Source of the DNA: Cyclobacteriaceae bacterium
GTDB taxonomy: Bacteria; Bacteroidota; Bacteroidia; Cytophagales; Cyclobacteriaceae
Length of the DNA stretch: 62,177 nucleotides
Reading direction: 5' to 3'
NCBI GenBank assembly: GCA_947457095.1
Contig: CANGUK010000003.1
Location: 1-62,177 of the forward strand
Every line of letters starts with the position of its first letter. The stretch's first letter is position 1. Positions 50,687 through 53,060 of this stretch are shown here, in pieces. The translations under genes were made by a program, and so were the position numbers. The notes below the pieces were generated by a model. The model saw nothing but the letters and a program-made list of their open reading frames with translations, was not told the origin of the DNA and made no database searches.

Positions 50687-50695
50687 TTCTCGTTG

Positions 50696-51391
50696 ATGAA
50701 AGTTATTCGTTGGATTGGAAAATTTATTTGGAAGTCCGCTTTATGGTTTTTTGGGCTTTCTATTGGACTCGTTGTTCTCTACCGATTTGTACCTGTTCCA
50801 ATTACTCCCTTGATGGTGATTCGATTGGTGGAACAAGGGCTCGATCCAGAAAAGGAACTGCGCTTAGTAAAGGACTGGGTTCCAATTTCAGAGATTTCGA
50901 GACATGCACCACAGGCGGTATATGCTGCTGAGGATCAAAAATTCATGGATCACCATGGCTTTGATATGGAAGCAATGGAAGAAGCCTGGGAAAACAATAA
51001 AAAGGGAAAGCGTATCAAAGGTGCGAGTACGATCACCCAACAAACGGTGAAGAATGTATTTTTATGGCCTTCTAGAAGTTATGTTCGAAAAGGGCTGGAG
51101 GCCTATTTTACTGTTTTGGTAGAATTGATTTGGTCAAAGGAACGAATCATGGAAGTGTACCTGAATGTCATTGAAATGGGAAATGGGATTTATGGAATTC
51201 AGGCAGCTTCGCAAACCTTCTTTGATAAAGATGCTGCCAAGCTTTCCAGGGGTCAAGCAGCATTGATTGCAGCGGTATTGCCCAATCCAAGACGCTGGAG
51301 TCCTGCCAGGCCTACCTCCTACATTCAAGGCAGAAAAAGCTGGATCATGCGGCAGATGAATAACCTTCCCCCTACCGGCTTCGGAAAATAA
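50696..51391 (+). CDS. mtgA: Monofunctional peptidoglycan glycosyltransferase
   Basis: 231 residues from ATG 50696. GT51 family: one N-terminal membrane helix (about 12-30), catalytic Glu79 in AAEDQKFMDHHGFD, and GASTITQQTVKNVFLW, LIWSKERIMEVYLNVIE, then AALIAAVLPNP. Polymerises lipid II glycan strands without a transpeptidase domain. Strong terminator follows; then the DnaA-box region. Confidence 0.94.
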   Translation: MKVIRWIGKFIWKSALWFFGLSIGLVVLYRFVPVPITPLMVIRLVEQGLDPEKELRLVKDWVPISEISRHAPQAVYAAEDQKFMDHHGFDMEAMEEAWENNKKGKRIKGASTITQQTVKNVFLWPSRSYVRKGLEAYFTVLVELIWSKERIMEVYLNVIEMGNGIYGIQAASQTFFDKDAAKLSRGQAALIAAVLPNPRRWSPARPTSYIQGRKSWIMRQMNNLPPTGFGK

Positions 51392-51492: not shown

Positions 51493-51511
51493 GCAGCAAA
51501 ATTTTATTTTA
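51493..51511 (+). repeat. Imperfect 19-bp direct repeat, left copy
   Basis: GCAGCAAAATTTTATTTTA matches 17 of 19 bases to the copy at 51795-51813. The two flank the perfect DnaA boxes. Confidence 0.65.
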
Positions 51512-51600
51512 TTTTGGGCCCCTAACTGTAGCCAAGATCCTCGAGCTTTTGGGAGGATTTCTTGCTGTAAATTTTTTCAAAAATGCCCTTAAATTCAGAA

Positions 51601-52045
51601 TTAAAGCAGATTAAAAAATGCAAGGAAAATTTATCCACAATTTCAATAATTTATCCACATTCATAATTACTTAATATATAAAATACTAATAATCAATTAG
51701 TTAATATGGTTTTCCTCCAACCGATTTTGTGGATAATTTTTGCTAACTAAATGATTATCAGTCCTAAATGTGATGACAAAAGTGGATAATTTCAGTAGCC
51801 AAATTTTATTTTAAATTCACTAGTATTCTTCCTTCTGGTTCTGCAATTTTTTACGGTAAACTTTGAAGATTTTTCCTTTGGCTACAAAACCAAAATACAT
51901 GTTATTTTCTACTTTGGGAAGATTTTAGGTTTCTGATTTTTCAAACTTTATCCTAGTCAATTGCATATTTTCTGAAGAGAATAGGATTTCTGGAGGACTA
52001 TGAATGAGTTGTCGGAAAAGAACATTTTTTACCTATCCACATCAC
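51601..52045. other. oriC: DnaA-box cluster with AT-rich core: candidate replication origin (oriC)
   Basis: The 730-bp gap between mtgA (ends 51391) and the M28 gene (ends 52122) has no credible gene. It holds TTATCCACA at 51631-51639 and 51651-51659, exactly 20 bp apart, the inverse TGTGGATAA at 51728-51736, the near match AGTGGATAA at 51781-51789, and CTATCCACA at 52033-52041. Between the second and third boxes, 51661-51716 is almost pure A/T, a possible unwinding element. Three perfect nonamers in ~105 bp is far beyond chance. Against origin status: genes on both sides point toward this gap. A DnaA-titration or regulatory cluster is the alternative. Confidence 0.6.
51795..51813 (+). repeat. 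Imperfect 19-bp direct repeat, right copy
   Basis: GTAGCCAAATTTTATTTTA; its first 9 bases GTAGCCAAA also occur inverted as TTTGGCTAC at 51877-51885, and GTAGCCAA directly at 51528-51535. Confidence 0.6.
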
Positions 52046-52121
52046 ATAGGATGCGGCGAATATCATCTAAAGTTACGATCCCTAGTAGCACTTGATCGGG
52101 ACTTAGTTTAGACTGTGAAGT

Positions 52122-53060
52122 TTATTGCTTTTCAAGTAGGCTTTTATCCAAGGCGAGCAGGGATTTTAAGATCAACTTGACAGTTGCTTTGTAAAATTCA
52201 GGATGAACCCCAGCAAAGGAATCACTAGGTCTGTGGTAATCCACATGGTCCTCAACTCCAAAATACAGATGGGGGACTTTCTTTTCGAAAAATGCCCCAT
52301 GATCGGAAGATCTAGTCCAATCTTCAGCTCCTGTGCCTGGAACATCGTGGCCAAAGCGAAGACTGGAGGCCGCTTCTCCAGGGACTTTTTCAAGGATGGA
52401 TTTAAACTGTGGATAATAATGCGTTCCCGACACATATACCTCCTTGGCATCACTTCGGGAAAGCATGTCCATATTCACATTCAATAGGATCTGTTCCAGC
52501 GGATAGGCAAAATCATTGACCAAGGCTTTTGCACCCTGAAGCCCCATTTCTTCGGCATCCAAAGCCGCGAAAAGCATTCCATGCTGCGGACGATTTTTGG
52601 AAAAATAGTCTGCCAGAACGAGTAGGGCAGCAGTACCGGAAGCATTGTCATCCGCTCCGTTGTATATGGAATCCCCTGCAGCATCAGGCCGTCCAATGCC
52701 CACATGGTCGTAATGAGCGGTGACCACGATTACTTTTTTGGAGGCTTTTCCAGGAATGAAGGCCACAATATTGCTTGCATCTACCACCATTTTCTTGGAT
52801 CGGCGATCCTCAAAGGAAAACTTTTGAATAAAATCTGGATACAAGGGCTCCACCAAGTCTAAGGAAGTTAGTTCTGTCAAAATATAGGTTTGAGCCATGC
52901 TGCTTCCCTTACTCAAGGGTTTTCTCCCCTCAAGCGCATCCGAAGACAAGTACTCCAAGTGTCGGAGGAGTTTGCTCCCGTCAATTTCTTGGGCATACAC
53001 CCCTGTAAAGGAGGCGAGAACTAAAATTATTGTACCTAATTTGCGTTGTAGGAATTGCAT
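52122..53060 (-). CDS. M28-family aminopeptidase, secreted
   Basis: 312 residues; signal peptide to about residue 23. Zinc ligands and catalytic residues in order: His116 and Asp118 (TAHYDHVG), Asp137 (GADDNASG), Glu170/Glu171 (DAEEMG), Asp in NVNMDMLS (~199) and His in DHVDYHRPSD (~278). Periplasmic or extracellular peptidase. Monocistronic, its stop facing the DnaA-box gap. Confidence 0.93.
   Translation of the reverse strand: MQFLQRKLGTIILVLASFTGVYAQEIDGSKLLRHLEYLSSDALEGRKPLSKGSSMAQTYILTELTSLDLVEPLYPDFIQKFSFEDRRSKKMVVDASNIVAFIPGKASKKVIVVTAHYDHVGIGRPDAAGDSIYNGADDNASGTAALLVLADYFSKNRPQHGMLFAALDAEEMGLQGAKALVNDFAYPLEQILLNVNMDMLSRSDAKEVYVSGTHYYPQFKSILEKVPGEAASSLRFGHDVPGTGAEDWTRSSDHGAFFEKKVPHLYFGVEDHVDYHRPSDSFAGVHPEFYKATVKLILKSLLALDKSLLEKQ

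Follow-up and report, generated by a model that had tools for sequence, protein, structure and literature searches.

The intergenic DNA of an Algoriphagus chromosome carries a free-standing element of ~160 bp which, judging from its sequence, is made up of a pair of DnaA boxes, a dyad, an opposing box and a weak fourth box. It was found in a window of 62,177 nucleotides (the whole stretch of DNA analyzed), which belongs to the draft genome (157 contigs; 2.47 Mb; 84% complete) of a member of the family Cyclobacteriaceae. The observed features of the element are its boxes at fixed spacing, the dyad, the single copy per matching genome, the independence from neighboring genes and a location off the origin, mostly in its vicinity. 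The original prediction had proposed two readings of the site, a chromosome origin (oriC) or a DnaA-titration site. The first is contradicted by our data, whereas the second, taken as a titration or control site, is supported by the single copy, the fixed layout, the origin-proximal position and the independence from neighboring genes. We lean toward the view that the element is a chromosomal DnaA control site that would work like datA of E. coli.

As predicted, the window contains three perfect DnaA boxes (TTATCCACA), two on the forward strand at 51631..51639 (box 1) and 51651..51659 (box 2), in direct orientation with a step of exactly 20 bp, and one on the reverse strand at 51728..51736 (box 3), 68 bp past the end of box 2. 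Two one-mismatch boxes are likewise present, the weak form TTATCCACT on the reverse strand at 51781..51789 (box 4) and CTATCCACA on the forward strand at 52033. Boxes 1 to 4 form two pairs facing each other, the first (1 and 2) directed rightward and the second (3 and 4) leftward. The surrounding gap of 730 bp, between the end of one ORF at 51391 and the start of the next at 52122, is AT-rich (68.4%, versus 55.0% for the whole window), and the AT content of positions 51601-51800 is 74.5%. A gap of equal size and composition would be expected to hold 0.009 perfect boxes by chance, the Poisson expectation for a triple within 106 bp is ~1.6e-7, and when the whole window was simulated 300 times with a Markov-1 model, not once did even two perfect boxes fall within 106 bp. 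The occurrence of three perfect boxes within 106 bp is beyond chance. The excess over the whole window is modest (five occurrences of TTATNCACA versus 1.76 expected, with 3 of 100 shuffles reaching five), and another perfect box is located at 52408, within the neighboring ORF.

The gap had been described as gene-free; however, positions 51826..52097 on the reverse strand are the decayed 3' end of a CLC-type channel gene (gene names, here and below, are given by sequence look). This remnant shows 55% identity over 67 residues with one in-frame stop, plus 50% over 22 residues, and the gene is open across the 356 to 358 residues compared in the other 16 of the 17 genus loci. The box-like CTATCCACA at 52033, which is not conserved, lies inside the remnant and was rejected as part of the element; the predicted set of five boxes is therefore reduced to four (51631-51789). 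To the left, an mtgA-like transglycosylase ORF (50693..51391, forward strand) is the neighbor in 17/17 genus loci, and the right neighbor in the window is an M28-type peptidase ORF (52122..53060, reverse strand).

The architecture of the element is conserved. Since loci were selected by boxes 1 and 2 only, the invariance of box 1 in the element alignment is by construction, and boxes 3 and 4 are independent findings. Box 3 starts at +97 from the start of box 1 in all 17 genus loci and, across a wider locus set, in 28 of 30 loci (+98 in the remaining two). The weak box 4, NGTGGATAA, is located at +149/150 in 16 of the 17 genus loci, where its first base is never T, and is present in only 5 of the 12 other-genus loci of the alignment. 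Over the same 17 loci, the 68-bp spacer between boxes 2 and 3 has a mean identity of only 49% (minimum, 31%) at constant length, whereas the distance from the element to mtgA varies from 221 to 356 bp. In a wider survey for three boxes with a gap of 66 to 70 bp, 80 of the 119 matches were listed; among these, the gap is 68 bp in 34 of 36 Algoriphagus loci (67 bp in two), and in the 44 other loci, two Rubrobacter records included, it is 68 bp in 23, 69 bp in 16 and 67 bp in 5. These box positions and gap lengths show a constraint on spacing. In several other genera, a third box is inserted between boxes 1 and 2, at 10-bp steps. In the two Rubrobacter records, the three-box pattern is matched within high-GC DNA densely packed with boxes, which may be an origin.

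Further motifs accompany the boxes in the genus. An A-run followed by CAAG precedes box 1 (window copy GATTAAAAAATGCAAG, 51609..51624, forward strand), with CAAG found in 17/17 genus loci. After box 3, the sequence GCTAACT (51742..51748, forward strand) is exact in 12 of the 17 loci; at its position, most other genera show a CTGTAAATGAG-like sequence. Finally, AAATTTTATT-like motifs are kept at both outer ends of the element in the genus loci: the right-hand motif, CCAAATTTTATTTTAAA, identified in the genus-locus alignment, lies at 51799..51815 on the forward strand, and a similar left-hand copy, AAATTTTATT, lies at 51497..51513 in the same direction.

The spaced pair formed by boxes 1 and 2 occurs exactly once per genome in 105 of 295 genomes of the family (38 of 84 genera), including all 17 genomes of the genus, while the reversed pair pattern, used as a control, was found in none of the 295. 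The exact pair is absent from 190 of these genomes, some of which carry a diverged form, and others may lack the element. At a threshold of E<=0.01, a profile model built from 29 elements (R1; locus L061 was left out as truncated) matches 165 of the order's 390 genomes, belonging to 72 of 129 genera. Among the matches listed, all 24 same-genus genomes have a strong match, and no genus member appears among the 20 listed of the 225 R1-negative genomes. Strong matches extend to other families (8e-12, 1e-11, 2e-11 and 7e-11); those weaker than ~1e-6, which may be due to chance or to other box clusters, were not taken as element positions.

Within the genus, the element sits between the converging mtgA-like and CLC-like genes, and at five loci of other genera it is found beside thioredoxin-like, MazG-like, peptidase, oxidoreductase, membrane-protein or CLC-like genes. 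The element is independent of its neighbor genes and travels alone across genera. This bears on the idea that the boxes form a DnaA-regulated promoter of a neighboring gene. Outside Algoriphagus, several genera do have the open frame of a thioredoxin-like gene starting ~150 to 250 bp from box 1 and reading away from it, but the position between converging genes in Algoriphagus and the change of neighbors around a constant element make such a role highly improbable.

That the site is oriC, where DnaA would open the AT-rich core and replication forks would start, is suggested by its compact perfect boxes in an AT-rich intergenic gap, by the occurrence of the pair once per genome and by the absence of dnaA nearby; the inward-facing box groups are also shared with bacterial origins. 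The claim nevertheless failed the genome skew check. Since raw GC skew is noisy from gene direction, we computed skew from third codon positions, separately for the genes on each strand, in 20-kb stretches sampled from relatives. In the five relatives with a clear signal (G130, G198, G227, G096 and G293), the skew first changes sign within ~10 kb of the parS pair and not at the boxes, and its sign is equal on both sides of the element. The sign change, parS and the element are located, respectively, at ~260, 258.3 and 548.6 kb in G130, at ~210, 208.7 and 368 kb in G198, at ~670, 671.9 and 786 kb in G227, at ~1160, 1151.6 and 1420 kb in G096, and at ~1170 (first change), 1173.0 and 934.7 kb in G293. 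The switch is less sharp in G293, where 10-kb values hover around zero between ~1190 and 1320 kb and one stretch (555 kb) has the wrong sign; wrong-sign 10-kb stretches also occur in G096 (positive at 1030-1050 kb) and G227 (near-zero or negative at 880 and 980 kb). In G047, sampled in three stretches, the skew turns from negative (up to 1440 kb) to positive (at 1460 kb), with parS at 1428 kb and the element at 1557 kb; in G085, where it is weak, and in G114 (three stretches), it is too noisy to place a switch. In the window itself, the skew is positive on both sides of the boxes (+0.04 and +0.11).

The position of parS points in the same direction. Allowing at most one mismatch to the consensus, two parS sites (four in G047) are found at one place in each of nine genomes, while the reversed control gave none in seven of the nine and one palindromic match each in G114 and G047. 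In the genome of the window, parS occupies a short gap between ybeY-like and mnmG-like genes, on a contig other than that of the window (contig C88, 5620-5682). Approximately 4.5 kb downstream of parS, past two more genes, a separate intergenic gap bears DnaA boxes in 9/9 genomes, the window genome included. Counting boxes of 0 or 1 mismatch, this gap holds four to nine in eight of the nine genomes, G114 being the exception with two. Perfect boxes are the minority here and are missing altogether from the gap in G198, G047 and G085. Its counterpart in the window genome (C88:10143-10574, locus L182) contains six such boxes, is cut by the contig end and, located past mnmG, is likely the true oriC, as a candidate defined from its sequence. 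The element, by comparison, coincides with the skew switch in none of the five clear genomes and is adjacent to parS/mnmG in 0 of 32 relatives, the distance being at least 30 kb in all of them. Skew and parS position together refute an origin at the window site, and we regard the oriC reading as extremely improbable. Two other places for the origin were considered and rejected: beside dnaA, which is on another contig than the element or at least 0.9 Mb away in eight relatives, and at the densest zones of boxes (G293:C10 at ~1.29 Mb and G130:C7 at ~0.28-0.295 Mb), where parS lies elsewhere and the boxes are mostly in ORFs. Separately, a perfect DnaA box is located 81 bp upstream of the dnaA match in the window genome (C1:19248) and another ~150 bp upstream of that of G198 (C14:333269), and autoregulation is possible in both cases.

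Although it does not coincide with the presumed origin, the element tends to lie near it. Once 25 more genomes were added to the nine, its distance to parS was available for 32 of 33 relatives; it ranges from 34 to 354 kb in 28 of the 32, with a median of 193 kb over the 32, and the element is found on either side of the origin. The outliers are G298 (585 kb, in a 9-Mb genome of another family), G266 (823 kb), G211 (839 kb) and G013 (~2987 kb), the last perhaps reflecting chance or a moved pair. These genomes were chosen for their long element-bearing contigs and are not independent, as genus g48 contributes 8 of the 32 and Algoriphagus itself 6; a 33rd relative (G214) gives no distance, its element and parS being on separate contigs. 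Element positions come from the exact pair in 26 genomes and from the best R1 match in 6 (G036, G107, G173, G303, G298 and G579). The parS place was defined by grouped sites; a lone match with one mismatch occurs at another position in several genomes, and G173 has one parS site among the matches listed. In G036, R1 gives a second, weak match (3e-5) at a distance of 4.7 kb from parS, around the place predicted for the oriC candidate, indicating that the model can also touch the presumed oriC.

Perfect boxes are abundant around parS more generally. They exceed the reversed control in all six relatives counted (116 versus 48 in G096 and 74 versus 45 in G293), and those within 300 kb of parS number 56 of 116 in G096 (14.4 expected) and 40 of 63 in G130 (9.0 expected). 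Such a cloud of boxes surrounds parS in G096, G130, G198, G227 and G293, mostly in ORFs where compared, with local clusters of 16 boxes in 9 kb (G293) and 14 in 13 kb (G130); one cluster near parS keeps partial spacing between species. Excerpts of PMC12371093 report the same crowding of boxes toward the origin in E. coli and Salmonella. Equal box clusters at many loci, which the original prediction had listed as evidence against itself, are thus partly present, in that other dense clusters exist around the origin, but the exact spaced pair occurs once per matching genome. The crowding in G096 and G130, with the same trend in E. coli, would fit passive titration, in which the element is simply part of this origin-centered cloud and binds DnaA by mass action, with no special complex. 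However, neither the fixed spacing nor the dyad nor the conserved weak box 4 would be required for DnaA to be titrated passively, and we consider this account rather unlikely. As a putative box cluster outside oriC, the element also recalls the DnaA-box clusters (DBCs) of B. subtilis, for which parts of PMC5295017 describe early initiation upon deletion of all six and yet a minor role; unlike these, it is one element with a strict architecture and an IHF-like dyad.

The spacer between boxes 2 and 3 contains a 25-bp dyad, TAA-N5-TGA-N3-TCA-N5-TTA (51679..51703 in the window), which resembles two back-to-back IHF consensus sites (WATCAANNNNTTR). It is the consensus at positions 48-72 of the 28 loci that have box 3 at +97. 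In the window, the right half is perfect (AATCAATTAGTTA, 51691-51703), and the left half has TAA instead of TGA. All four triplets are present in only 9 of the 57 loci among the matches listed, and three or more in 38. The IHF consensus with at most one mismatch is found anywhere in the spacer in 26 of 30 loci (shuffle mean, 6.9; largest, 13), and the perfect consensus in 9 of 30 (shuffle mean, 0.41; largest, 3); in 25 of the 30, the match falls on the fixed dyad positions. Among the listed Algoriphagus loci, 30 of 36 have a match with at most one mismatch (Markov-1 mean, 9.9; largest, 20), 14 of them perfect (mean, 0.56), and under other labels, counting one locus per label and leaving out Rubrobacter, the values are 28 of 34 (mean, 8.6; largest, 16) and 11 (mean, 0.45). 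In 3 of the 17 genus loci, the best match carries two or three mismatches.

In E. coli, IHF is an alpha/beta pair. By contrast, four of four genomes searched here have one match each to PF00216 (HU/IHF family), other HU-like families falling outside this profile. A single PF00216 match per genome suggests a homodimer, which would explain the symmetric site, but the dyad may instead serve an unrelated dimeric protein. The sole PF00216 match lies 16 to 17 kb from the element in two species (G130:C7:532662 and G293:C10:951764) and ~620 kb from it in G096. Binding of further proteins is suggested by the dyad and by the outer AAATTTTATT motifs, which would suit a site where DnaA acts in chromosome folding, segregation or replication-linked signaling rather than in initiator control. 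With parS elsewhere and no link to a known segregation site, we consider this function quite unlikely.

The closest counterpart of the element appears to be datA of E. coli, in which, according to excerpts of PMC10380432 and PMC4585315, boxes 2 and 3 flank an IHF site, the spacing is important and the locus is always near oriC. Like datA as described there, the element would be an off-origin, origin-proximal, non-coding cluster of putative strong DnaA boxes that flank an IHF-consensus site at a constrained spacing. The likeness is one of layout and position, read from sequence, so the element may be said to work like datA but not to be datA. Several differences stand out. Here, the IHF-like site has the form of a dyad, IHF alpha/beta is replaced by a single HU/IHF-family match in each of four genomes, boxes 1 and 2 are 20 bp apart with a third box added in several genera, the distance to the origin varies (4 of 32 relatives fall outside 34-354 kb), and the Algoriphagus-type element, from a different phylum, occurs on either side of the origin. 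Moreover, part of PMC11317965 states that DnaA of E. coli favors pairs of boxes separated by 2 or 3 bp. In the element the separation is 11 bp (1 bp in the presence of a middle box), which argues against simply transferring the E. coli scheme.

Three strong boxes with opposing members and a fixed layout are also reminiscent of DARS1 and DARS2 of E. coli, each with three uniquely arranged boxes and the latter using IHF, as given in portions of PMC8682772 and PMC10380432. At a DARS-like site, DnaA molecules on opposing boxes would meet and release ADP, and DnaA would be reactivated. A spacer of 68 bp with a bend-type site in it separates opposing boxes 2 and 3, an arrangement closer to that of datA, and reactivation seems doubtful to us.

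Returning to the datA-like control site, we infer from the layout described above that DnaA binds, that the DNA is looped and that the output is titration or inactivation, and we likewise infer which protein occupies the dyad. DnaA would bind the four boxes as two inward-facing pairs, and an HU/IHF-type protein would bind and bend the dyad between them, bringing the pairs together. The inward boxes around a double IHF-type site and the one PF00216 match per genome suggest a bent complex that removes active DnaA. Being near the origin, the site would be doubled soon after initiation and hence capture DnaA, probably promoting ATP hydrolysis and preventing a second start. More tentatively, and with distinctly less confidence, we speculate that the Cytophagales possess a DnaA-switching locus of their own, a convergent datA in which a homodimeric HU/IHF protein on a palindromic double IHF site folds two box pairs into a DnaA-inactivating complex amid a titrating cloud of boxes. 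This might place titration and switching on one chromosome outside the Proteobacteria.

Off-origin DnaA control loci are a known kind, and the present architecture is apparently new in this group: among the matches listed from the open-license PMC literature, no such site was found in Bacteroidota. The results also carry a warning for origin predictors, since in the genomes examined the most compact cluster of perfect boxes is not oriC, while the likelier oriC gap carries mostly imperfect boxes. To our knowledge, little is known about how Bacteroidota restrict replication to once per cycle. The element suggests that loci for DnaA control away from the origin are not confined to the Proteobacteria, and a conserved, single-copy, spacing-constrained DnaA site close to the origin but outside it offers a concrete target for the study of replication control in Bacteroidota.
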